In this document: in pieces, positions 2,912 to 26,021 of the stretch
Layout: the number at the start of each line of letters is the position of its first letter
Numbering within the stretch: the first letter of the stretch is position 1
Virus record (IMG/VR): IMGVR_UViG_3300043435_000893
Location: 1 to 37,375 of that record
From: a virus
DNA: 37,375 bases
Direction: 5' to 3' (one strand)
Translations under genes and position numbers: made by a program
The notes under the pieces: generated by a model
Told to the model about the DNA's origin: nothing
The model's database searches: none
Seen by the model: the letters and a program-made list of their open reading frames with translations, nothing else

Positions 2912-3114
2912 GTTTTCATATTCCTGATATAGGCAGCGAAACTGCCCGTTGTGTCCGGCCCGAAAGCCTTCATCTTCTCAATCTCCTTGGCCACCTCTTC
3001 AAGGACCAAGTTGCGTTGCGTAGACAAGACCCATGGATCCTCTTCAAGCTGTTCAATGACCATCTGGCGCTTACGCCAACCCATGGCCTTCTCCCAAATG
3101 CTTAGTTCTTTCAC
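2908..3114 (-). CDS. Small conserved phage protein, unknown function
   Basis: A 68-residue, mostly helical and charged protein. The segment VIEQLEEDPWVLSTQRNLVLEEVAKEIEKMKAF is rich in Glu and Lys and looks amphipathic. The C-terminus, FAAYIRNMK, resembles small phage proteins I have seen without assigned function. It starts at GTG (3112-3114), overlapping the stop of the preceding gene as GTGA, and ends with the same GTGA overlap into the glycosyltransferase. The three genes are therefore translationally coupled, and it may act with the glycosyltransferase. No catalytic motif is visible. Confidence 0.6.
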   Translation of the reverse strand: MKELSIWEKAMGWRKRQMVIEQLEEDPWVLSTQRNLVLEEVAKEIEKMKAFGPDTTGSFAAYIRNMKT

Positions 3115-3743
3115 GTTTTCTTCTCCTCAATGTTGTAAAACCAATCGTCGCCCGCGGACCACTTGCGTGTGCCATCCACTGTCCACAACCTCTGCGCTGC
3201 TTGGAAGTCAGGAAACTTCGTATCAGCAGGAACAAGACTCTGGTCATACCAGAGGCACCGGTTGTTGGGCTGACAGGCAAACTGCCCGTTGTCCAGAGCA
3301 ATGAAGTTAAAGCTCTTGTGCTCCTCGGCCGTTTCTGTGAATCCAGTGTCCAAGTCCATGCCATCAGCACAGAAGTCCACAGTGAACAGATAGCGCCCGA
3401 AATGCCATTCCTTATCCTTGCCAAGGAACTTCACACCAAGATTGCGCAGGCCAATCTTTTCAATGATGGTGAATTGATAGCCCATGCAATCCCATAACTG
3501 CAGGGTGTCAATGGGCAAATTACCGTGGTCCGCGTGCCACACATAAGCATGAATCGGCAGCTTGTCGTACAGCGCCCCGTAATGCGGCAGCAGGGATTCA
3601 ATCCTGAATACCTGACCGCGCAGCGCCTTCAAACTGACCCACACCGCCGGCTCCAACTCCCCATGGCCCTTGTGATCGTTGTACAGAAACTCACGTTTTA
3701 CAAAACACTTCAGGGGCGGCAGGGATGCCACGATATAGCTCAT
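3111..3743 (-). CDS. Conserved phage protein, unknown function
   Basis: A 210-residue protein rich in aromatic residues, starting MSYIVASLPPLKCFVKREFLY. I place the start at 3743 and not further upstream because it forms an ATGA overlap with the stop of the previous gene and because the residues before it read as a shadow of that gene. The protein has regularly spaced Trp/Tyr/His (HAYVWHADHG, WHFGRYLFTVDFC, NRCLWYDQSLVP) and a final DDWFYNIEEKK, consistent with a compact beta-rich fold. No known motif is recognised. It sits directly upstream of the 68-residue protein and the glycosyltransferase in the same coupled set. Confidence 0.65.
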   Translation of the reverse strand: MSYIVASLPPLKCFVKREFLYNDHKGHGELEPAVWVSLKALRGQVFRIESLLPHYGALYDKLPIHAYVWHADHGNLPIDTLQLWDCMGYQFTIIEKIGLRNLGVKFLGKDKEWHFGRYLFTVDFCADGMDLDTGFTETAEEHKSFNFIALDNGQFACQPNNRCLWYDQSLVPADTKFPDFQAAQRLWTVDGTRKWSAGDDWFYNIEEKKT

Positions 3744-3940
3744 GCTTGCTCCCTCGCTCGAATGGCGGTAGCAAGGGTTTCTGTACCACCATGCCAATCG
3801 CTCCAAGCTTCCACTACCTTGGCACACGCCTCACGCTCATGTTCTGCTACCAGTTTGGCAAAGTCATCTAATTCAACACAAATATCGAATGACTCCATGC
3901 CCACTTCTTTTGCCATACGAACAATGTCTTCTCTGGTCAT
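3740..3940 (-). CDS. Small phage protein with AEREACAKV motif
   Basis: A 66-residue protein of a type found very widely in phages and prophages. It has an acidic N-terminal helix (MTREDIVRMAKEVGME), then LDDFAKLVAEHEREACAKVVEAW and a C-terminal TAIRARE. I recognise the FAxLVAxxEREACAKV and AIRAR pattern as a common phage hypothetical family with no established function. Length is typical. It is coupled at both ends by 4-bp overlaps (3937-3940 and 3740-3743). The conserved single Cys in EACAK is present. Confidence 0.7.
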   Translation of the reverse strand: MTREDIVRMAKEVGMESFDICVELDDFAKLVAEHEREACAKVVEAWSDWHGGTETLATAIRAREQA

Positions 3941-5633: not shown

Positions 5634-5849
5634 ATGGTACACATTGATCAGGGAATAGCCCTGCCAACTAATCGATCCAAATACCCTTTTGGGGAAATGG
5701 AGGCGGGGGATAGCATTCTGTTTGGCGTGCGCAAGCAAGCTGAAAGCTGCAGAGTGGCTGCCCTTCGGTTTACCCGAGTGCATCAGCCTAAATGGGTGTT
5801 CACGTTGCGCAAGGTGGACAATGGTTGGCGTTTGTGGAGAATCAGCTAA
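5634..5849 (+). CDS. Small DUF7303-like phage protein
   Basis: A 71-residue protein: MVHIDQGIALPTNRSKYPFGEMEAGDSILFG..., ending WVFTLRKVDNGWRLWRIS. The pattern YPFxxMxxGDS with a terminal RxVDNGxRxWRxx matches small phage proteins I know as DUF7303, function unknown. GGGAG at 5623-5627 is 6 bases from the ATG at 5634 and 3 from an in-frame ATG at 5631, so 5634 is slightly preferred. Its stop overlaps the ATG of the small terminase by one base (TAATG), so the two are coupled. Confidence 0.65.
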   Translation: MVHIDQGIALPTNRSKYPFGEMEAGDSILFGVRKQAESCRVAALRFTRVHQPKWVFTLRKVDNGWRLWRIS

Positions 5850-6517
5850 TGGCCAAGAAAGACGTTTGGAATGTTCCCCCTGTCATGCCTGACAAGGCAC
5901 AGAAACGAATGTCTACTGAGGTGGCCCCGCTGCGGCAGCAGCGCAGGAAGCTAACAGCCAAGGAATGGACCTTTGTCACTGAGCTTGTGAGTGGCGATGG
6001 CCGCACCACAATGAAAGAGGCAGCCATCAGGGCGGGGTACAAGTCGTCCAGCGCTTCTGTGATGGCATGGAAGCTCACAAACCCTGATATCAACCCCCAT
6101 GTGGTCTCTGCCATTCAGGCCTATCGTGCTGACTTGGCGTCCAAGTACAACACGTCCTATGAGCGCCATATGCGCGATTTGCAGATCATTCGCGATAAAG
6201 CCCTTGATGCCGGTGCATTTGCAGCAGCCGTCCAAGCAGAGTATCGTAGGGGCCAAGCCTTGGGAACGATCTATGTGGAGCGCAAAGAGATCCGCCACGG
6301 CACAATTGACAGCATGAGCAAGGAAGAGGTGCAGCGCAAGCTTGACGAGCTTAAAAAGCTGTATGGTGGGCCTCCACCCACTGCCTTGATCGATGCGGAC
6401 ACTGGAGTGGTGATTGAAAGTGCAGCAAGAGAAAAAGATCCCGAATTCGACGCGGGAGTGGAGCAGCCTCCGCTTGACATCTTTGAGCGAGGTTTGGGGG
6501 GATCAGATGACACCTGA
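5849..6517 (+). CDS. terS: Terminase small subunit
   Basis: A 222-residue protein with the layout of a phage small terminase, which recognises packaging sites and stimulates the large subunit. Residues about 32-75 (KLTAKEWTFVTELVS, then TMKEAAIRAGYKS and PDINPHVV) read as a helix-turn-helix DNA-binding region. A long helical section follows (YERHMRDLQIIRDKAL ... AAVQAEYRRGQALG ... EIRHGTIDSMSKEEVQRKL) suited to ring oligomerisation. The acidic C-terminal tail probably contacts TerL. The start at 5849 overlaps the previous stop by one base; upstream in-frame codons are a shadow. The large subunit lies 5.6 kb downstream, an unusual separation. Confidence 0.8.
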   Translation: MAKKDVWNVPPVMPDKAQKRMSTEVAPLRQQRRKLTAKEWTFVTELVSGDGRTTMKEAAIRAGYKSSSASVMAWKLTNPDINPHVVSAIQAYRADLASKYNTSYERHMRDLQIIRDKALDAGAFAAAVQAEYRRGQALGTIYVERKEIRHGTIDSMSKEEVQRKLDELKKLYGGPPPTALIDADTGVVIESAAREKDPEFDAGVEQPPLDIFERGLGGSDDT

Positions 6518-8155: not shown

Positions 8156-8853
8156 AAACAGTCAGAATTAGCGCCAACAGCAAAACCGGCCCAATAGCAG
8201 TTACTTATCGCAGCGGCGAACATGAAACTTACGGCACGTGCCCCACAAGCTGCAGCCTTCACCCTAAAAGTGAAACCGGCACATCACAAATTGACAGTGA
8301 ATATTTACAAGCTGTTTTTGACAGCGTGCCCCGTGGTGGTCAAGCTTGGACATATTCGCATTTTGCGGCCGAAGCGCTCCCGCTGCCGAAGCCAAATAAA
8401 ACAGTGATAAACGCAAGCTGCGACACTACGGCCGAAGCAGTGCGCGCCGTAGAATTAGGCCGGCCCGCTGTGTATGCTGCGCCCCTAGAATCGGCCGATC
8501 AGTGGCCGCGTAAAATCCACGGCGTACAATTTGCCCGTTGCCCTGCTGAATTGGCCGACAATTTCAGCTGCCAACAGTGCGGCGGCGGCCGGCCATTGTG
8601 TGCACGTGGTGCGCGTGATTTTGTTGTTGTTTTTGTTGCCCATGGCACCGGTAAAAAGAAAGTGGGAACTGATGCGACCGGCGGCTGTTATGCTGCAAGC
8701 GGCCCGACAGCGATTCAATGGCACAACACTAGAAAAAACGGCGCTGCTAATGATGCTGCAGCGCTTCGCGAATTTGTGCGCACTCTCCCGCATGGATCTT
8801 TTTTGCGCCACCATATCGCGGGCGATTGTGGGCGGGAATTGGGGGCCCCTTGA
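8149..8853 (+). CDS. DUF7227-like Cys-rich phage protein
   Basis: A 234-residue protein with a highly patterned sequence: NSKTGPIAVTYRSGEHETYGTCPTSCSL, then GGQAWTYSHF, RCPAELADNFSCQQCGGGRPLCA, ARDFVVVFVAHGTGKKKVG and GGCYAASG. The spaced Cys pairs (TCPTSC, CQQCGGGRPLC) suggest metal binding. I recall this layout from phage and plasmid proteins grouped as DUF7227, with no proven activity. It is a sizeable protein with its own leader. The final GELGAP end overlaps the start of a tiny membrane peptide. Confidence 0.7.
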   Translation: MLKTVRISANSKTGPIAVTYRSGEHETYGTCPTSCSLHPKSETGTSQIDSEYLQAVFDSVPRGGQAWTYSHFAAEALPLPKPNKTVINASCDTTAEAVRAVELGRPAVYAAPLESADQWPRKIHGVQFARCPAELADNFSCQQCGGGRPLCARGARDFVVVFVAHGTGKKKVGTDATGGCYAASGPTAIQWHNTRKNGAANDAAALREFVRTLPHGSFLRHHIAGDCGRELGAP

Positions 8854-10228: not shown

Positions 10229-10257
10229 ATGGTGGTGGCGGGGGTGGGTGGGCCCGC
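10229..10257 (+). repeat. 29-bp G-rich repeat, copy 1
   Basis: ATGGTGGTGGCGGG followed by GGTGGGTGGGCCCGC is identical to the copy at 11865-11893. The G runs (GG, GG, GGGGG, GGG, GGG) could fold as a G-quadruplex on the plus strand. A pyrimidine-rich tract precedes it. It ends 21 bp before the -35 of leader F. Confidence 0.85.
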
Positions 10258-10334: not shown

Positions 10335-10745
10335 ATGACCGATCAGGAAAAAATTGATTTGCTTGGCGAGGCCTTGAACAATCTTATGCAGTCCGCTGAC
10401 ACTTACATTGTCGATGGATCTTGGATTGATGAATTGACCCTTGACATTGAAAATGCTCGGGCTTTGCTTAAGAGAATGACAAATTGCATTATTCAAATGA
10501 GACATGACCTTGCTGAAGAGGGCTATTCTGTCCCTGCTTCGCGGACCTTCAGCAATTACGACACACTGGACGATGACCTTTACATTTCTGCCGATGAATT
10601 GAAAGGCGCAACGTTTGGCGACGATCCCGCTGATCCCGACGATCACCCGTTTTGCTATCTTCAATTGAAGGACGGCCGGTCCCTGTATTTCATAGGGGCT
10701 GATCTAGACTTTATTTATAAATTAAAGATTGTACAAACAGAGTAA
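10335..10745 (+). CDS. Hypothetical acidic protein
   Basis: A 136-residue acidic protein with no recognised family. A helical N-terminal half (MTDQEKIDLLGEALNNLMQS ... LTLDIENARALLKRM) is followed by an acidic segment (DDLYISADE, DPADPDDHP) and a C-terminal strand pair (FCYLQLKDGRSLYFIGADLDFIY). The start at 10335 is chosen because the AGAAAGGATAGAGAG word and a promoter lie directly upstream. The codons upstream of it read through palindromes and the G-rich repeat and are not likely to be coding. Confidence 0.6.
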   Translation: MTDQEKIDLLGEALNNLMQSADTYIVDGSWIDELTLDIENARALLKRMTNCIIQMRHDLAEEGYSVPASRTFSNYDTLDDDLYISADELKGATFGDDPADPDDHPFCYLQLKDGRSLYFIGADLDFIYKLKIVQTE

Positions 10746-10750
10746 AACAG

Positions 10751-10812
10751 TGCTATAATTCAACTATCTAATCGGCCGATTAGATACAACCTTAGAAAGA
10801 AGAGAGAACGCA
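10751..10812 (+). promoter_or_regulatory. Leader G: promoter, 22-bp palindrome, SD word
   Basis: TGCTATAAT (10751-10759, extended -10) is followed within a few bases by a perfect 22-bp palindrome (10765-10786; half TATCTAATCGG). CTTAGAAAGAAGAGAGAAC then leads to the ATG at 10813. The SD word is a variant of the AGAAAGGATAG type. Confidence 0.65.
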
Positions 10813-11289
10813 ATGAGCAACCCAGTAACACCCTTTCGTAATAACCTGTTTGGTTCACGTCCCACAATCCAAGAAGCTTTGGATTATGCGGAGATGCTGA
10901 TCAATACTTTAAGTTCCACGGATCAAGTGGCCGTCCGGACTGCCTTTGGTGTTTTGATAAACACCATCGACAACAAGGTGACCAACACCCCCGAGCGAAT
11001 TGCAGTGGTCCAACTGATCAGTTCCATTATCAATGAGCAATTGAATGTCACAACAAATGACATCGATGAGCAGATCAGCAACTGGATGAACAGTAATTTA
11101 AAAGAGCGGATCATGGACATCATGGCCGATGACGACATCGATGACCAGATCAGCAACTGGATGTCAAACAACTTTGACATCACAGATTACAACGTGGATG
11201 ATGCAATTGAATCTTGGATGGATAACAACATAGACGAAAAGATTCAAGACGCAATAAGTAATATTGAATTCAGTGTTACTGTTAAATAA
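10813..11289 (+). CDS. Hypothetical protein with DIDxxISNWM repeats
   Basis: A 158-residue acidic protein. Residues 17-80 look helical (IQEALDYAEMLINTL ... IAVVQLISSIINEQL). The C-terminal half has four imperfect repeats of one motif: DIDEQISNWM (about 83-92), DIDDQISNWM (108-117), NVDDAIESWM (127-136) and NIDEKIQDAI (139-148). Their Asp/Glu and Trp/Met pattern suggests short amphipathic helices that could bind one partner several times. No homolog is recognised. It has its own hairpin leader. Confidence 0.6.
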   Translation: MSNPVTPFRNNLFGSRPTIQEALDYAEMLINTLSSTDQVAVRTAFGVLINTIDNKVTNTPERIAVVQLISSIINEQLNVTTNDIDEQISNWMNSNLKERIMDIMADDDIDDQISNWMSNNFDITDYNVDDAIESWMDNNIDEKIQDAISNIEFSVTVK

Positions 11290-11293
11290 TCCG

Positions 11294-11361
11294 TGATATA
11301 ATTCATGCACTGGACCAGCCGGTCCAGTGCAACTTAAACCCTAGAAAGAAGAGAGAACATC
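11294..11361 (+). promoter_or_regulatory. Leader H: promoter, stem-loop, SD word
   Basis: TGATATAAT (11294-11302, extended -10), then a perfect stem-loop GCACTGGACC-AGCC-GGTCCAGTGC (11307-11330) and CTAGAAAGAAGAGAGAAC before the ATG at 11362. The stem would lie at or near the very 5' end of the transcript. Confidence 0.7.
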
Positions 11362-11673
11362 ATGACTAAAGTCATCACAATTGATAGCAACCGTTACGTG
11401 TTACCAACTGAAATGTCCAACAAGGACATTCAAGCTCTGGCCGGTTTCCTGATCACTCTAACCAGAGTGGACTATGAGTGGATGTATGGCCAAGGCGATA
11501 GCCTTTACTTTCCGAACGAAGGCGCGAAAGTCAGCATAGACCAGTTGGATCTGGTCAGCAAAGAAGAAGCAAAGACCAGAGCGAACACGGCCCGCGAAGT
11601 TTATCAGGCCAAGAAGGATGAAGAAGAAAGGGCCAAGGCCGGTGACCTGATCGGCCTACACGTGAACCAGTAA
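11362..11673 (+). CDS. Hypothetical protein
   Basis: A 103-residue protein. The N-terminal half reads as short strands and one helix (MTKVITIDSNRYVLPTEMSNKDIQALAGFLITL). A patch YGQGDSLYFPNEGAKVSI comes next, and then a charged helix (SKEEAKTRANTAREVYQAKKDEEERAK) ends the protein. No family is recognised. It has its own leader with a strong stem-loop and is closed by a terminator, so it is the last unit of the accessory block. Confidence 0.6.
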   Translation: MTKVITIDSNRYVLPTEMSNKDIQALAGFLITLTRVDYEWMYGQGDSLYFPNEGAKVSIDQLDLVSKEEAKTRANTAREVYQAKKDEEERAKAGDLIGLHVNQ

Positions 11674-11681
11674 GCGCTGGT

Positions 11682-11707
11682 CTAGGTTGTATGTACATAC
11701 AACCTAG
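11682..11707. repeat. Perfect 26-bp palindrome
   Basis: Each 13-base half is CTAGGTTGTATGT / ACATACAACCTAG. The right end runs into CCTAGAAATC, which resembles the leader word of the small genes (ACAACCTTAGAAAG in leader G). No gene follows, so this may be an orphan leader. Confidence 0.8.
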
Positions 11708-11721
11708 AAATCACAAACCCG

Positions 11722-11748
11722 AAGGCAGCCGACTGGCTGCCTTTTTTG
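11722..11748 (+). terminator. Rho-independent terminator
   Basis: AAGGCAGCC (11722-11730), loop GACT and GGCTGCCTT (11735-11743) form a perfect 9-bp stem. A T-run (11742-11747) follows. It ends transcription of the accessory block. Confidence 0.85.
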
Positions 11749-11756
11749 TCAGCCGT

Positions 11757-11780
11757 TACTCTACCCTACAGGGTAGAGTA
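11757..11780. repeat. Inverted repeat, 11-bp arms
   Basis: TACTCTACCCT / AGGGTAGAGTA with two bases (AC) between the arms. It directly follows the terminator and has no T-run. Confidence 0.75.
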
Positions 11781-11782
11781 TC

Positions 11783-11802
11783 ACAGGGCCCTAGGGCCCT
11801 GT
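11783..11802. repeat. Perfect 20-bp palindrome
   Basis: The half-site is ACAGGGCCCT, repeated in reverse complement with no gap. It could be a dimer-protein binding site or a cruciform; no function is shown. Confidence 0.8.
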
Positions 11803-11864
11803 AGCCTTACCACACTATCCTTACGCGCGCCTTACACTTTCCCTTTTTTTATTATTCTTCCCTC

Positions 11865-11893
11865 ATGGTGGTGGCGGGGGTGGGTGGGCCCGC
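11865..11893 (+). repeat. 29-bp G-rich repeat, copy 2
   Basis: Identical over 29 bases to 10229-10257. It again follows a pyrimidine-rich tract (CCCTTTTTTTATTATTC) and again lies downstream of a terminator in a gene-free gap. Confidence 0.85.
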
Positions 11894-12041
11894 CTGTTCC
11901 TCTGTTGTCTATGTATGGGGTTACATTCTTAACTAGGGGGAGGGCCATAAACAGCCCAGTTCACTCAGGCTAAACCTTCGCCCTGTTTCTGCCAAATTTC
12001 AAACCTTTTTAAACTTGGTCTCCTCAAAAGACCCCCCCTTG

Positions 12042-12070
12042 TTGTTTTAAATGCAATCAGGGGTTATATT
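12042..12070 (+). promoter_or_regulatory. Candidate promoter of terL and the head operon
   Basis: TTGTTT (12042-12047), a 17-bp spacer and TATATT (12065-12070) lie just before the ATG of terL at 12095. The match is moderate, but a promoter is expected here because a terminator lies upstream. Confidence 0.4.
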
Positions 12071-12094
12071 TATGCAAATTTCAAAACGTGGCCT

Positions 12095-13564
12095 ATGCAC
12101 TCTATAAAACCCGATGACGTCCAAGAAGAACAGCTTCGCTTGGAGCTTCGCCTCAAACTTCTTGAAGCGCAGGAGCGTGCAACCACTGACTTTCTCAGCT
12201 TCTGCCAGTACGTCTGGCCCGAGATGCTCGTTGGGGAGCACCACAAACGTATTGCCAAAGCCCTTGATCGTGTGATCTCTGGCGAGTGCAAACGCCTGAT
12301 GATTGCGATGCCTCCTCGTCATGGCAAGTCACAGCTTGGGAGCTACTTGTTTCCGGCGTATCTTATGGGTAGAAACCCTGACACTAAACTTATTGTCGGC
12401 TCCCACACGGCTGAACTAGCGCAGCGTTTTGGCCGGATGATTCGTAATCTGGTTGACGACGAGAAATACAAAGAGTTGTTCCCAAAGATGGCCTTGTCCG
12501 TGGACAGTAAAGCGGCGGGCAGATGGAACACGGCCCAAGGCGGTGAAGCGTTCTTCATTGGTAAGGGCGGTGCGATGACGGGCCGTGGTGGTAATGTTGT
12601 TGTGCTGGATGATATTTTGGACGAGCAGGATGCTGTGTCTGAAACTGCGATGGAGAACACGTGGGAGTGGTACACGTCCGGTCCTCGTCAGCGTTTGCAA
12701 CCGGGTGGCGCGATCATTGTGATTAATACGCGTTGGAAGACAGACGATCTGTCTGGCCGCTTGCTCAAGCAGCAGGGCTATTTGAAGTCAGACCAGTGGG
12801 AAGTTCTGGAGTTCCCAGCTATTTTGCCGTCCGGAAAACCCCTGTGGCCCGACTATTGGAGCCTTGACGAGTTAGAGAAAGTCAAGGTATCCATTGGCTT
12901 GAAGAAGTGGAATGCCCAGTGGCAGCAGCAACCAACGAATGATGAGGGTGCAATCCTGAAGCGTAACTGGTGGCGCAAGTGGAAGTACGATGATCCACCA
13001 GAGTGTGAGTATCTGATTCAGGTATACGATACGGCGTACTCAAAGAAAGAGACTGCTGACTTCTCTGTTATCAGTACGTGGGGCGTGTTTTATCCTGATG
13101 CTGATTCTGGAGCCAATCTGATGCTGCTTAATGTGCGCAAAGGCCGTTGGGACTTTCCTGAGCTAAAGCGCATGGCCAAGGATGAATACATGTATTGGAA
13201 GCCTGATAATGTTTTGATTGAGGCGAAAGCTACTGGCACACCATTGCAGCAGGAACTGCGTAAGATGGGCATTCCTGTCACGATGTTCTCGCCCGGCGGT
13301 CGCCGCTCTGGTCAGGACAAGGTATCCCGCGCCAATGCCGTGGCCCCGCTTCTTGAATCAGGCATGATCTGGTATCCTGAGGGTAAGGAGTGGGCCGAGG
13401 ACCTTGTAGAGGAATGCGCGGCTTTTCCTAACGGGAACAATGACGACCAAGTGGATACTGCGGTGATGGCTTGGACAAGATTTCGTGCTGGTAACTTTAT
13501 TGCGTTGGACACGGACGACGATACGGAAGACGAGCCTGATACAACACCGGTTGAGTATTATTGA
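12095..13564 (+). CDS. terL: Terminase large subunit
   Basis: A 489-residue packaging motor that couples ATP hydrolysis to DNA translocation into the procapsid and cuts the concatemer. The ATPase domain has a Walker A MPPRHGKS at 72-79, a Walker B VVVLDD at 168-173 and the coupling motif NTRW at 211-214. The C-terminal nuclease domain has YDTA (Asp312), VLIEAKATG around 370 and DDQVDTAVMAW around 455-465, giving the acidic metal ligands of the RNase H-like fold. Length is normal. No strong SD precedes the ATG. It stands 5.6 kb from the small subunit because the accessory block lies between them. Confidence 0.95.
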   Translation: MHSIKPDDVQEEQLRLELRLKLLEAQERATTDFLSFCQYVWPEMLVGEHHKRIAKALDRVISGECKRLMIAMPPRHGKSQLGSYLFPAYLMGRNPDTKLIVGSHTAELAQRFGRMIRNLVDDEKYKELFPKMALSVDSKAAGRWNTAQGGEAFFIGKGGAMTGRGGNVVVLDDILDEQDAVSETAMENTWEWYTSGPRQRLQPGGAIIVINTRWKTDDLSGRLLKQQGYLKSDQWEVLEFPAILPSGKPLWPDYWSLDELEKVKVSIGLKKWNAQWQQQPTNDEGAILKRNWWRKWKYDDPPECEYLIQVYDTAYSKKETADFSVISTWGVFYPDADSGANLMLLNVRKGRWDFPELKRMAKDEYMYWKPDNVLIEAKATGTPLQQELRKMGIPVTMFSPGGRRSGQDKVSRANAVAPLLESGMIWYPEGKEWAEDLVEECAAFPNGNNDDQVDTAVMAWTRFRAGNFIALDTDDDTEDEPDTTPVEYY

Positions 13565-13610: not shown

Positions 13611-16600
13611 ATGGCCCAACAGACGTTTGAAGAGTTAGTTGCTGCTGTAAAGCAAGCGGAGAGCCGCGGCAAGCGCTACAAAGATGACGGTAAAACTCTG
13701 ACCACCAGTCCCAAGGGTGCCCTTGGTGAGATGCAGGTCATGCCCAAGACTATTCTTGATCCCGGCTTTGGTGTAACCCCTGCTAAGGATAAGTCCCCTG
13801 ATGAGATTGCAAGGGTCGGCGTAGATTACTTGCAGGCCATGAAGCAGAAGTATGGCGATACAGAAAAGGCTTTGATTGCGTATAACTGGGGACCGGGCTC
13901 CACGGACAGGTGGTTAGCTTCTGGTGCTGACCCAAAGAAGTTGCCGGCGGAAACCCGCACTTATGTAGAGCGTGTCAAGGGATTCCTTGGCAAGGATGTT
14001 CCACGTGAAACAATGGCAAAAAAAGACCGTGAGCCGTTGCCCCCATCGCTGCCCCCAATGGCACAAGCGGAACCAAAAACAACAACTGTGGCAAGTGCCA
14101 GCAAAGGCATACCGGACATTAAGAACATGCCCGCCAGCTATCAAGCCGCTTTTGCTTTAGCCGCCTTGGCAGATGCCAAGGATGATGAGAAGGAATTTGA
14201 CGAGAACAAAGAAACCGAAGCTGAAAAGCTGATGCAGGATTACAAGCCTGTCAATTATTTGGCTTCTTTGGAGTTGGATGTCAAGCCGGTCATGATGAAG
14301 GACGGTGGGGAAGTGGACGCGGAGGAGAAGCGCCCTGATGACATCAATTACTTTAGCAATGTCAATCGGATGAAGGACCGCGGAACGACAACAGATTCCG
14401 TGATGCTCGGCGCGCGGACCAAGGCTGGTGAAGGTTCTGTCATTGCTGGTCTGAACATGGCCAACATGAGCAAAGACGAGAAGATGCAGACGGCGCGTGC
14501 TTTGATGTTGGCGTATACGCAGCAGGATCCTGAAGGTTTGGGGTTTAGTGCAAATGTTGTCAAGCCCCAAGGCGCTCCGGCCATGGCTAATTTGATGGGA
14601 TCACTTCCTGTGGGTGAGGGCCGTGTATCGGCGGGTGTGCATGGTAATCAGGCGTATTCGTTGGGATACAACCGCCCTGTTGAGGGTGGTCAGTTCAGTG
14701 CAGACTTGAATGTTCCACGTGGAACAATGGGTTCTCCCCAGTTAAACCTGCGGTATGACAAGCGGTTTGCCAAAGGTGGCGACGTATCCAGTGTTAACAG
14801 AAGTTTTGAAGAGGAAGAGGATGTAAGCAAGCCGTTTATTGGCAATCCTAATATTAGCAGACAGGTTGGGCAAGCAAGAAGAAATGCTGCAATCCAAAAA
14901 GCCAGCTATCGTGATGAAGTAGCCGAAGCAAAAGATACCGCACGCAAGGGCGAGGCGTATCAAGAGCTTGAGAAATACTTGCAATCGCGGGATGCAGTCC
15001 CCAACGTAAAGGTAACAAGCTACTTGCCTGAAGGCACTCACGGAATGTTTTCTTCGGATAGACCAAACATTACCACGGGTAGCATAAAAATTAACAAAAA
15101 CCTGCCTGAAATGTTTATGCCTTCAACAATAGCGCATGAAATGACACATGCTGCAGACAGGCAGATGGAACAGCAGGCAATGGAGCAGGGCCTGTTTGGC
15201 AAGAGCAATCAATTTACTGAAGCCTACAAAAAAATGGTAGGTAAAGAGGGTAGAAACCGCACACAACTTCTGCGTAAGCGTTACCCAGAGTTTGAAGAAG
15301 ACAATCGGTACTACCGGTCAAGGCCAGATGAAGTTGCAGCGCACGGTATAGGCGCTTATTCCGGTCCAGTTATGCAAGACAGCGCGCCGCGGCACGTGGA
15401 TGCTACTGCTGCAACGGAGTTACGTATCCTGATGGACCTTGCGCAAAGGAACGTGGACAAAGGACCAACTGGTTTAGGCAAAATCCTGCCGTTTTTTAGA
15501 AAACTTGAAAGTTACGCAGACGGCGGTGAGGTGTACCGTGCAGACGGAAGCCCCCCAACAGGCGAGCGCAAGTTAGACCGTGAAACAATGGATATGTTGC
15601 GCAGGCAAGGTACATCTCCTGCGTCATTAACACGAGTGGCTCCTCCTGCTGACATAAGTTCTTCTGCGGCAGGTTTGCCCGGATTGATGTTGCTTGCCGA
15701 TCCACGCATTGACAATACCAACGCGTATGGTTACGTGTTGGATAGCAGTGATGACAAAAAAAACTTTGGCATGGCTCAGGCAATGTTTTTAAACAAAAGC
15801 AGATCAGAAGATTATCCCGATACGATTGCACATGAAACAGAACATTTGTTGGCACGTCAGAATTTGGGATCTGCGGCCAGTATTAATAGTAAGTTTGATG
15901 AGTTGATAGGAAATAAGGGCATTTCTCGTCTTAACTTTGTTAGAGACGCCGTTAAAGCAGCCCCTTATTTAAAAGAAAAATACGACTTGCAATCTAGCTA
16001 TCTTGATCCAAAAATGTTTGAGTATCAATCCAAATTTGGTTTGGGCAAGAACCTTTTGTATGAACAATTGGCTTCTTTAGCTGCTTTGGAGCAGCGCCAC
16101 AAAATAGATTTGACCAAAGATCCGGAGTTGCGCAAGACTTTGTTCTCTCGGCCCGATGTCCGCGAGACATATAACGCCCTCACTGGTCTGCGTCAAACGC
16201 GCCTAGACCCACGGGACTTGCCTCCACACACACGCGTGCCTGAACCCGGCATGTTGGATGCTATTAAAGGGGTGTTTAAGCGTGCCGATGGTGGCATGGT
16301 GTACCGTGCAGACGGCAGTCCAGAGACGGGTGAGCAGTTGACCCCGCAACAGATGGAAAGAATCGCGGCCCAAGAATCAGCAGAGCGTGAAGCGGCAAGC
16401 AATGCTGCTTTTATTGCGCAGAAGTCTGGTATTGGTCGCAAAGCAGGCCCTGTTTCTCAGGCTTTGCAGTCTGGTCAGGGGCAGATAGAGTTCCTTAAAG
16501 GCATGACCAACGTACCGCAGAATATTTTGGGTGCGCCGATGGATATTTCCAACATGATTGCCAACGTATATGGCGGTGGTGTTGAGAAACCGTTCATGGG

Positions 16601-18410
16601 CAGTGAGTATCTGAAGGAAAAATCACGGGCCGCGGGCCTAGGATTTACCCCATCTACTGATCCAACCCTAGCCGGCTTCTATGGTGCGGGTGATCTAGGC
16701 AGCAATCTTGTTAATCCAGCTGGCGTTACGCGCGCGGGCGTGAAGGCTGCGGAGAAAACAGGGGAAGCAGCCAAGATGTTGGCCCGTGATTTCCAAGGCT
16801 ACAACCAGCAGTTGGCTGTTCCCGGTGCTTCGTATGCAATCCGCAATCGTGGTACGCCGTTTTTGAATACACCTGAACAATTTGATCACATGGGGAAAGT
16901 AGAACGGGGAGCAATGGGTGAGGCGGATGACTACGCAAATTGGTTATCCCGTACTTTTGCTCATGGGCAGCCAGCATTAAAAACTTGGCTACGAGATAAA
17001 GTAGGGGCATATTTGCGCCGTGACTTTGGAACTGAAAGCGACCAGATGGTTCAAGCTGCGGACCAAGGCAAAAAACTGCACTTTATGTCGCCTAAGCTGA
17101 CAGAAAACGTACCTCATCAATTAGGTACAGACATTGGTCTTTCTCGGGAACTTGAAGGGTTTCCAAAAGCAGGATTTGCAAAAACACCGCAAGGACAAAA
17201 GGTAGAAGAGGTCATTGACTCTACAATTTATCCGCTTCAATTGCAGGACATTAATACCTCTGGTCTGTCATACAAAGTTCCAAAAAGCATGCAACAGTTT
17301 GTGGATACCAATCCTGAGATGCGTGTAAGTCAAATGGGGCCTATTGATGAAAACCTGAAGCTTGACGAGTTGGCTCAGGCGATGGAAAAGATGTTTAAGG
17401 AAAAAGAATTTAAGGCGTATGGAGAAACTGCTCCAATGCCTAAAGAGTACATTTTGACAGATGAAACTTTGCAGGGATTGACGCCTGCGCAAGCATCCAA
17501 CCGCGTAGCAAACAAAATGGCATGGGTTGAGAAAAAACGTGGCGAGTTAGCAGGCGTTGCGATTTCTAAAGATCCGCAGATCGTAAGCCACAGTTATGAC
17601 AACGGTAACAAGTGGATTAGTCCTGCTGATTTAGCCGACAATCCAAACCACGCAGAGATGGTAAAAGACATTGGTTGCGCGGGGGGATGGTGCACAGACA
17701 AGGCTAATTTTGCTTTGGACTACGGTTCTGGTGAAAATAGACTGAACATTTTGTTGGATAAGAAGTTTGAGCCACGTGTGCAGCTTACTTTAAACCAACC
17801 ACAGCCTTCAGTTGCTGAATTTGCCAAGTACATATACTTGACGAATAACGACAGTTCTGTATTAGATGAAATGGCTAAGTCAGCATATGGCTGGTACACT
17901 GCAGCGGATGCTAAGATTGAAGCCAAAGTTAGGGCCATGCCTGAGTATCAGCAATATGTTAAACAATACCAACCAGAAAAAAGCATTACAGAAATTAAAG
18001 GCCAGTTTAACAATTCGGATTTAACAAAATCACCATACCTTAAACAGGTTCAAGATTTTGTTAAACGTCAAGGCACGGATCTACAACGCGTAGACAATTT
18101 AGGCGGCATTAACATGGTGGACATGCGTAATACCGTGGATTTTTCTGATTACGGGGTTTCAAGAAAAAATCTATCAAAAGAAGAGTTTGGCGCATACACT
18201 GATTTATTTAATAAAAAACTTGTAGAACTTAACGGTAACTCTTATTTTGTAGACAAAGATAGACTGCCTGATTTGATTAAAACAGTTCGCGAAACCATAC
18301 CAACCAACAAGGCGCGCCAAATCCAAATGAATTTATTTGGACTCCCCAAAGAAAAGGCGCATGGGGGTATGATCGAGCGCCAGCCCAACGATAACCGCAG
18401 ATATCTGTAA
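13611..18410 (+). CDS. Giant modular protein: lytic transglycosylase plus zincin-like modules
   Basis: A 1599-residue protein. Residues 1-125 match a soluble lytic transglycosylase: Glu17-Ser, then SPKGALGEMQVMPKT and ALIAYNWGPG. Two HExxH segments follow, HEMTH at 509-513 (possible third ligand Glu574) and HETEH at 741-745, suggesting metallopeptidase-like folds. A near-copied segment VYRADGSPxTGE occurs at 641 and 897. The C-terminal third has GCAGGWC (Cys1356-Cys1361), KSITEIKGQFN and VQDFVKR, resembling phage polyvalent or PcfJ-like proteins. Modules are joined by short GG(E/D/M)(V/I) phrases. It lies between terL and portal and is probably an injected virion protein that opens the cell wall. 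AAGGA 9 bases upstream supports the start. Confidence 0.7.
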   Translation: MAQQTFEELVAAVKQAESRGKRYKDDGKTLTTSPKGALGEMQVMPKTILDPGFGVTPAKDKSPDEIARVGVDYLQAMKQKYGDTEKALIAYNWGPGSTDRWLASGADPKKLPAETRTYVERVKGFLGKDVPRETMAKKDREPLPPSLPPMAQAEPKTTTVASASKGIPDIKNMPASYQAAFALAALADAKDDEKEFDENKETEAEKLMQDYKPVNYLASLELDVKPVMMKDGGEVDAEEKRPDDINYFSNVNRMKDRGTTTDSVMLGARTKAGEGSVIAGLNMANMSKDEKMQTARALMLAYTQQDPEGLGFSANVVKPQGAPAMANLMGSLPVGEGRVSAGVHGNQAYSLGYNRPVEGGQFSADLNVPRGTMGSPQLNLRYDKRFAKGGDVSSVNRSFEEEEDVSKPFIGNPNISRQVGQARRNAAIQKASYRDEVAEAKDTARKGEAYQELEKYLQSRDAVPNVKVTSYLPEGTHGMFSSDRPNITTGSIKINKNLPEMFMPSTIAHEMTHAADRQMEQQAMEQGLFGKSNQFTEAYKKMVGKEGRNRTQLLRKRYPEFEEDNRYYRSRPDEVAAHGIGAYSGPVMQDSAPRHVDATAATELRILMDLAQRNVDKGPTGLGKILPFFRKLESYADGGEVYRADGSPPTGERKLDRETMDMLRRQGTSPASLTRVAPPADISSSAAGLPGLMLLADPRIDNTNAYGYVLDSSDDKKNFGMAQAMFLNKSRSEDYPDTIAHETEHLLARQNLGSAASINSKFDELIGNKGISRLNFVRDAVKAAPYLKEKYDLQSSYLDPKMFEYQSKFGLGKNLLYEQLASLAALEQRHKIDLTKDPELRKTLFSRPDVRETYNALTGLRQTRLDPRDLPPHTRVPEPGMLDAIKGVFKRADGGMVYRADGSPETGEQLTPQQMERIAAQESAEREAASNAAFIAQKSGIGRKAGPVSQALQSGQGQIEFLKGMTNVPQNILGAPMDISNMIANVYGGGVEKPFMGSEYLKEKSRAAGLGFTPSTDPTLAGFYGAGDLGSNLVNPAGVTRAGVKAAEKTGEAAKMLARDFQGYNQQLAVPGASYAIRNRGTPFLNTPEQFDHMGKVERGAMGEADDYANWLSRTFAHGQPALKTWLRDKVGAYLRRDFGTESDQMVQAADQGKKLHFMSPKLTENVPHQLGTDIGLSRELEGFPKAGFAKTPQGQKVEEVIDSTIYPLQLQDINTSGLSYKVPKSMQQFVDTNPEMRVSQMGPIDENLKLDELAQAMEKMFKEKEFKAYGETAPMPKEYILTDETLQGLTPAQASNRVANKMAWVEKKRGELAGVAISKDPQIVSHSYDNGNKWISPADLADNPNHAEMVKDIGCAGGWCTDKANFALDYGSGENRLNILLDKKFEPRVQLTLNQPQPSVAEFAKYIYLTNNDSSVLDEMAKSAYGWYTAADAKIEAKVRAMPEYQQYVKQYQPEKSITEIKGQFNNSDLTKSPYLKQVQDFVKRQGTDLQRVDNLGGINMVDMRNTVDFSDYGVSRKNLSKEEFGAYTDLFNKKLVELNGNSYFVDKDRLPDLIKTVRETIPTNKARQIQMNLFGLPKEKAHGGMIERQPNDNRRYL

Positions 18411-22572: not shown

Positions 22573-23037
22573 ATGACTAAAGTTACTATCGACAAAGCCC
22601 CCCGCGCAACCCGCGATACGGAAAAGCGTCGCCGTCCTTGGACCCCTCCCTCACGTCTTGACGCGCCTCCTGCCCCCGAAGGGTTTAAGCATCGTTGGAT
22701 CCGTGCCGAAGTGAATGGCCATCTGGATAAACAAAACGTCTACGGACGTCTTCGTGAGGGCTATGAACTAGTCCGTCTTGAAGAGTTGCCAGAAGAATAT
22801 CAAGGCATGATGCCTACCGTTGATGACGGTAAGCATGCTGGAGTGGTTTCTGTAGGTGGACTTTTGCTTGCAAGAGTTCCCGATGAGACTATTGCAGAGC
22901 GCAACGAGTATTACCGCCGTAAGGCTCAGGAACAGTTACACGCTGTTGACAACGAGATGATGCGAGAGAACGCACACTCTACAATGCGGATTCAGAGCCC
23001 CGAGAGGAGCTCGCGCACAACATTCCGTCAACAATAA
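22573..23037 (+). CDS. Putative head-associated protein
   Basis: A 154-residue protein with a basic, Pro-rich N-terminus (RRRPWTPPSRLDAPPAPEGF). KHRWIRAEVNGHLDKQNVYGRLREGYELVR then follows, which I recognise from phage proteins lying between scaffold and capsid. The C-terminal third is helical and charged (ERNEYYRRKAQEQLHAVDNEMMRE). The role is probably structural or an assembly cofactor. The start at 22573 has AAGGAG upstream; residues before it would read into the scaffold's stop region. Confidence 0.6.
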   Translation: MTKVTIDKAPRATRDTEKRRRPWTPPSRLDAPPAPEGFKHRWIRAEVNGHLDKQNVYGRLREGYELVRLEELPEEYQGMMPTVDDGKHAGVVSVGGLLLARVPDETIAERNEYYRRKAQEQLHAVDNEMMRENAHSTMRIQSPERSSRTTFRQQ

Positions 23038-25766: not shown

Positions 25767-26021
25767 ATGGCTAAGTCTCCCGCATGGCAGAGGAAAGAAG
25801 GGAAAAGCCCAACTGGCGGTTTGAACGCCAAGGGCCGTGCTTCTTACAACAAGGCCAATCCGGGTAAACCCGGATTAAAGGCTCCGCAGCCAGAGGGGGG
25901 TTCTCGCAAAGACAGCTTCTGTGCCCGTATGGAAGGCATGAAAAAGAAGTTGACAAGCGAGAAGACAGCCAAGGATCCAGATAGCAGGATTAACAAGAGC
26001 CTGAAGAAGTGGAAGTGCTAA
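25767..26021 (+). CDS. DUF6321-like protein
   Basis: An 84-residue basic protein that matches DUF6321 almost throughout: SPAWQRKEGKSPTGGLNAKGRASYNKANPG, GLKAPQPEGGSRKDSFCARMEGMKKKL and KDPDSRINKSLKKWKC. The family is common in cyanophages and other aquatic phages, and no function is established. The strong net positive charge would suit DNA or RNA contact. It begins one base after the stop of the previous gene. Confidence 0.75.
   Translation: MAKSPAWQRKEGKSPTGGLNAKGRASYNKANPGKPGLKAPQPEGGSRKDSFCARMEGMKKKLTSEKTAKDPDSRINKSLKKWKC

Follow-up and report, generated by a model that had tools for sequence, protein, structure and literature searches.

Sequence-variable hairpins with preserved pairing before the terminase gene of a phage lineage: a possible transcription-unit boundary

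Results

Genes and sequence elements before terL

The window, i.e. the whole stretch of DNA analysed (37,375 nucleotides of the IMG/VR virus record IMGVR_UViG_3300043435_000893), carries a segment of roughly 420 bp that lacks a likely gene, between ORF 11362-11673 and terL. The features of this region, hereafter the block, and of its surroundings are collected in Table 1. An earlier note had described here a cluster of three perfect palindromes around a terminator, followed by three CCTTAC repeats and preceding the large terminase gene. The terminator, the 20-bp palindrome, the repeats and the position before terL were found as described. The first palindrome is also real but measures 28 bp instead of 26 bp, and the 24-bp inverted repeat is present, although the 2 nt between its arms mean that it is not a perfect palindrome.

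Table 1. Features of the block and related elements in the window.
Feature	Position	Strand	Remarks
Terminase small subunit-like ORF	5792-6517	+	phrog_51, E 2.2e-10; later start at 5849 possible
5' hairpin, ORF 10813 unit	10765-10786	+	Predicted +1 A10766, after TATAAT 10754-10759
5' hairpin, ORF 11362 unit	11306-11331	+	Predicted +1 A11309, after TATAAT 11297-11302
ORF 11362	11362-11673	+	103 aa, directly upstream of the block, no family match
Hairpin 1	11681-11708	+	28-bp perfect palindrome, no spacer, 7 nt 3' of the ORF 11362-11673 stop
Putative intrinsic terminator	11722-11747	+	9-bp stem (11722-11743), 4-nt loop, then TTTT
Hairpin 3	11757-11780	+	11-bp arms, 2-nt spacer
Hairpin 4	11783-11802	+	Perfect 20-bp palindrome
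CCTTAC copies	11805-11810, 11819-11824, 11830-11835	+	Read from the sequence
CCTTAC copies and pyrimidine tract	11805-11853	+
G-rich element GGTGGTGGCGGGGGTGGG	11867-11884	+	Second exact copy at 10231-10248, about 1.6 kb apart
GGGGGAGGGCC	11936-11946	+	Found in 60 of 67 sequences
Promoter-like CCCCCCTTGTT...GGGGTTATATTT	12033-12071	+	Immediately 5' of terL; putative function
terL, terminase large subunit	12095-13564	+	phrog_38, E 1.7e-113

The putative terminator combines a G+C-rich stem and a short loop with a T-run directly 3' (the stem itself ends in TT and is followed by TTTT, with five T in seven), and its folding as an RNA hairpin returned a value of -16.0 kcal/mol; it is missing from the output of a simple terminator scan. 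No T-run follows hairpins 1, 3 and 4, which show at most two T in seven on the + strand.

All counts on relatives rest on the best 80 of 240 viral-contig stretches obtained from a TerL search, and 66 of these, continuous for at least 520 nt upstream of terL, were joined to the window in a set of 67 sequences. The named relatives were DSL-LC04 (63% in TerL), HTVC027P, 023Pt_psg01 and HTVC023P, and no phage DNA nearly identical to positions 10500-13000 was found in the phage collection. Within the set, CCCCCTTGTT of the promoter-like pair occurs in 57 sequences and its TATATTT part in 44, while a G-rich element near terL was detected in 36 with a strict pattern and in 45 with a loose one. The 18-mer GGTGGTGGCGGGGGTGGG is a candidate G-quadruplex former, and one relative (L013) carries a perfect hairpin roughly where the window has this element. 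At the place matching 11805-11853, two relatives (L043 and L051) show by eye another hairpin followed by TTTTCCCTTT; judging from the sequence, the tract in the window may perhaps be a decayed second terminator.

PHROG and Pfam searches gave no match for the three small ORFs before terL. On the other side of terL, a 1599-aa ORF (13611-18410) precedes the portal gene, its first ~130 residues matching virion structural, endolysin and lytic tail families; a gene annotated as PcfJ-like follows terL in DSL-LC04. A ferredoxin-like auxiliary gene (phrog_3704, E 7.9e-73) lies on the minus strand at 3111-3827. Scans of the window returned no Rfam match at the gathering score and no tRNA.

Excess, folding and recurrence of the hairpins

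The palindrome density, which the earlier note had called exceptional, exceeded chance in simulations. The window contains 12 inverted repeats (arms of at least 8, spacer of at most 4), compared with 3.45 +/- 1.6 in 20 sequences simulated from its dinucleotide frequencies, and its longest arm is 14 bp, with at most 12 in the simulations. The segment 10765-11802 contains eight of the 12, including two within ORF 10813-11289. The same clustering emerged from the window and five related genomes or contigs (G002, G003, G006, G011 and G013), where 42 of the 60 repeats with arms of at least 9 fall within 3 kb upstream of terL, i.e. in 18,000 of 332,670 bases (5.4%); the binomial p of 2e-39 treats related genomes as independent and is therefore overstated. 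Folding of positions 11674-11810 as RNA returned -72.1 kcal/mol, with -38.8 for shuffled sequences (z -9.41, none of 200 shuffles as low), and folding as DNA gave a z of -10.49.

At least two hairpins are present in the 420-nt block of 64 of the 67 sequences (mean 3.28), L019 and L040 having none and L066 one. A single hairpin in total was found in 201 equally sized windows within terL, which are coding and thus do not control for non-coding DNA. In the near clade, the hairpins stand at about -413, -372, -337 and -311 from terL and have changed arms that still pair. The core of hairpin 1 is common to 25 of 29 aligned near sequences (all except L019, L020, L026 and L029), a different hairpin occupies the position of hairpin 3 in L005, L008, L009, L024 and L025, and distant contigs carry other hairpins in this block. 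Lack of conservation of the palindromes, which the earlier note had named as an argument against its own proposals, is thus only half the case: beyond the near clade the sequences are lost, but the hairpins are kept. The hairpins before terL drift, but a perfect hairpin elsewhere in the window, AATCCGGGTAAACCCGGATT at 25857-25876, has the identical sequence in G002 and G003.

Of 141 distinct hairpins in the block, 32 have a T-run behind them on the + strand, which is the strand of the flanking genes, and five have one on the - strand; in L029, L032, L041, L047 and L053 (57-61% G+C) all block hairpins are devoid of it. In DSL-LC04, 023Pt_psg01 and HTVC023P the annotated gene preceding terL has a hairpin 10-21 nt past its stop, and HTVC027P shows by eye one in the same range with an 11-nt loop.

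Genome ends and regulator binding

A non-coding site directly before terL, with conserved elements nearby, might be expected to hold a pac or cos site, as the earlier note had proposed, but we consider this highly improbable. The terminase small subunit-like ORF, which scored 18.9 bits against Pfam Terminase_2, below the cut-off of 26.1, lies about 5.6 kb away, and the hairpin sequences are not conserved between clades. Moreover, two relatives of about 61 kb, G003 (61,782 bases) and G002 (60,977 bases), show a 127-nt overlap of their contig ends, as in circular assemblies, at positions corresponding to 8258-8384 and 22703-22829 of the window, respectively. They look like circles opened at different, unrelated places, so that no genome end is marked at the block, which speaks against cohesive ends there; the overlaps leave the position of a pac site unplaced. 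Of the two other large contigs tested, G006 showed no end overlap, and the ends of G011 matched over at least 50 but fewer than 100 nt. The 66 loci with unbroken sequence upstream of terL also stand against the proposal. Contig ends near terL, evaluated by eye among the best 80 of the 240 stretches, are spread out and occur just downstream of terL as well.

The dyad symmetry could instead indicate operators, with each palindrome as the putative target of a dimeric regulator. Hairpin 1, with its core in 25 of the 29 near sequences, would suit such a role, as would the inverted repeats that fill the -35/-10 spacer of a sigma70-like promoter about -676 to -897 from terL in L043, L054, L056, L074 and L075. 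However, the palindromes are unlike each other within one genome, and other clades hold different sequences at the same place; apart from the core of hairpin 1 in the near clade, no sequence shared among sites or relatives was found, as a sequence-specific operator would call for. We therefore regard operators as improbable, and the single regulator-binding site suggested in the earlier note lacks support for the same reason. If the block has a protein-binding site, the G-rich element, GGGGGAGGGCC and the promoter-like pair would be better candidates than the hairpins.

Paired changes and strand test

Covariation analysis used the 25 sequences (of 81) in which the core of hairpin 1 lies no more than 600 nt from terL, and the removal of six identical ones left 19 aligned sequences. 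Eight of the 39 pairs were changed on both sides, with 2.5 in shuffled alignments and none of 500 shuffles reaching this number; no more than three paired changes resulted when the partners were slid by 1-3 columns. Since some of the eight stem from rows in another hairpin 3 register, the analysis was repeated on the 14 sequences of one register, leaving out L005, L008, L009, L024 and L025: six pairs were changed on both sides compared with 0.8 after shuffling (none of 500 reaching it; at most three when slid). In hairpin 1, four of the 12 stem pairs were changed on both sides among the 19 sequences, its unvaried inner pairs being uninformative because the sequences were picked by its core; in hairpin 4, variation among the 14 sequences is restricted to the central pairs. 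Paired substitutions thus exceed the shuffled controls, as expected of a structured RNA, with the provisos that the shuffles ignore relatedness and that the sequences were chosen by the hairpin 1 core.

Stems with G.T pairs were then compared with stems with A.C pairs as a test of RNA-level selection, which would tolerate G.U pairs on one strand. The block contains 11 and 5, respectively (p 0.21), the rest of the module 44 and 30 (p 0.13), and the control of terL and downstream sequence 10 and 16; the excess of G.T was larger over the whole 2.5 kb, where chance stems are uncorrected.

Loop inversions

Loops were compared between hairpins whose inner arms are identical and whose flanks are similar. 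At a mean flank identity of at least 0.85, there are 12 distinct multi-base loop changes, of which 10 invert the loop exactly (five in 2-nt loops, for which chance is less remote, four in 3-nt loops and one in a 4-nt loop), besides eight single-base changes. At a mean flank identity of at least 0.60, 12 of 27 multi-base changes are inversions and 15 are other changes, with 22 single-base changes. Examples are AGA/TCT between L005 and L009, ACA/TGT between L005 and L008 and GGA/TCC between L047 and L049; the window itself takes part in none of the listed inversions. The pattern resembles the footprint of template switching, a mechanism that, with its loop inversions, is described for rRNA genes (PMC8794818). 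As template switching can create paired changes in a single event without selection, the covariation reported above is a weaker proof of selection.

The inversions lend themselves to two further explanations. According to the first, the hairpins would be a mutational by-product, in which template switching makes and perfects palindromes in tolerant spacers and the terminator alone is functional; the high share of exact inversions, and a mechanism and footprint already known from rRNA genes (PMC8794818), are in its favour. Mutation alone should scatter hairpins over all spacers, and thus their crowding into a single module, with 42 of 60 inside 5.4% of the sequence, counts against it, as does their single offset from promoters; we judge this explanation unlikely.

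According to the second, the structure would act at the DNA level, as cruciforms or single-strand hairpins in a control region for replication, recombination or packaging where only the fold matters. The inversions point to a stage at which the arms are paired as DNA, two hairpins lie past the terminator, conserved elements adjoin the block, and among block stems with at least nine Watson-Crick pairs 105 distinct ones lack and 11 contain G.T, although the nine-pair threshold favours perfect stems. On the other hand, in G002, G003, G006 and G011 cumulative GC skew, a marker of origins and a weak test, reached no extremum closer than 3 kb to the block, and a replication or packaging site leaves unexplained the hairpins found at predicted transcript starts and after stop codons. 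A DNA-level role hence appears rather unlikely, though worth keeping in view.

Hairpins at predicted transcript starts and after stop codons

Predicted +1 positions were derived from TATAAT-like boxes. For the hairpins at 10765 and 11306 the start of the stem fits the predicted +1, as 5' protection would demand. Across 227 distinct promoter-like sites in the module before terL, stems of at least 7 bp start in the -2 to +3 bin at a frequency of 0.30 per site, compared with 0.029 at random places, 0.048 and 0.026 in the adjoining bins and 0.066 in the spacer region (-32 to -27). Such stems start between -5 and +29 at 87 promoter sites, 70 of them at -3 to +1. In six genomes or contigs, a +1 stem accompanies nine of 50 promoter-like sites in the module and four of 249 elsewhere; in the module of G013 it was found at none of three promoter-like sites, and no +1 hairpin was convincing in the 13-kb pieces examined from DSL-LC04 and the three marine relatives. 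The five sequences with inverted repeats in the promoter spacer carry a further hairpin at the predicted +1.

Overall, 431 distinct hairpins from 64 sequences were assigned to overlapping classes: 51 lay at a predicted start, 42 preceded a T-run, 25 occupied a promoter spacer or -10 box, 140 started -6 to +40 nt from a stop codon, with a mode of 7 nt, and 97 were confined to crude ORFs. The remaining 136, including hairpins 3 and 4 of the window, belong to no class.

Discussion

Placement and known mRNA-end biology (PMC3997798) lead us to infer that the hairpins act in RNA, and a transcription-unit boundary is most likely the most economical account of the block. We give an even chance to the specific proposal that an early or middle transcription unit has its downstream boundary at the block, with the terminator among 3' stem-loops, and that the block insulates the late operon. 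Transcription of ORF 11362-11673 would end at the intrinsic terminator, set in an array with one stem-loop right after the stop codon and two past the terminator, perhaps with the remains of a second one. The stem-loops in the RNA would halt read-through or trim it back and would protect 3' ends against exonucleases, thereby keeping early transcription from the late operon, which would use its own promoter-like sequence directly before terL. Several short transcripts would bear a stem-loop at their predicted first nucleotide, as expected of 5'-end protection. The stems remain perfect as the sequence drifts, perhaps partly through template switching in DNA replication, which would also invert the loops.

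The perfect stems, the strong folding, the paired changes, the recurrence of hairpins in the blocks of relatives, the T-runs mostly on the + strand and the placement at predicted +1 positions and after stop codons support this boundary. The lack of T-runs at hairpins 1, 3 and 4 and in the blocks of the five G+C-rich relatives, the location of hairpins 3 and 4 past the terminator, where RNA would be scarce, the 136 unassigned hairpins and the +1 stems at just nine of 50 module sites count against it. The late-switch element of the earlier note agrees loosely with a border between small-gene module and late operon, but no observation supports switching. A broader proposal is more tentative, and we regard it as possible but doubtful: the lineage would flank its short transcription units by perfect hairpins that change rapidly in sequence, namely a +1 stem-loop and a post-stop array. 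Their pairing would persist, and template switching would flip their loops as the phage replicates. This would amount to a lineage-wide protection of mRNA ends that passes on the structure and leaves the sequence free to vary.

If true, the system would provide a compact natural case of hairpins kept by structure alone, in phages related to HTVC023P-type pelagiphages, and the loop inversions would be a sign of active template switching in intergenic phage DNA. It would also caution against taking every palindrome cluster ahead of terL for a packaging site. The records of HTVC023P and HTVC027P name a host strain (Pelagibacter HTCC1062) and the transcriptome of HTVC027P has been studied (PMC12753301), so that a related case is testable. 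Among the titles and abstract openings listed from open-licence papers, none describes such arrays in these phages, and the terms 'palindrom' and 'hairpin' are absent from PMC10611076 and PMC9599517.

Comparison with known systems

The element at 11722-11747 is like known intrinsic terminators in its G+C-rich stem followed by a T-run, and so is the last block hairpin of L043, L051 and L074, followed by TTTTCCC or TTTTTCCC. Intrinsic terminators occur singly or in tandem. The window differs from them in having three more stems without T-runs, two of which are past the terminator.

A 5'-terminal stem-loop reportedly stabilises the ompA mRNA of E. coli. In this bacterium 5' structures stabilise mRNA because RppH and RNase E depend on single-stranded 5' ends, according to PMC3997798, whose reference list includes papA as an example of a 5'-stabilised mRNA. 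The 5'-terminal stem-loops of E. coli mRNAs and the hairpins outside the block are alike in lying at or near the first transcribed base, whereas here several short phage transcripts are concerned, with unrelated stems and predicted starts.

The inversions described for rRNA genes (PMC8794818) likewise reverse-complement the loop exactly and leave the arms unchanged between near relatives. The same likeness applies to the small inversions reported for chloroplast DNA, where the loop is flipped between unchanged arms; in contrast to both, the inversions reported here occur in a phage module before terL. Finally, the SAS/ESAS elements of cluster K mycobacteriophages (PMC3203893) are similar as inverted repeats just upstream of phage gene starts. 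ESAS repeats have a consensus in common and, according to that paper, departures from it do not generally support pairing, whereas the hairpins of the phage studied here differ in sequence and keep their pairing.
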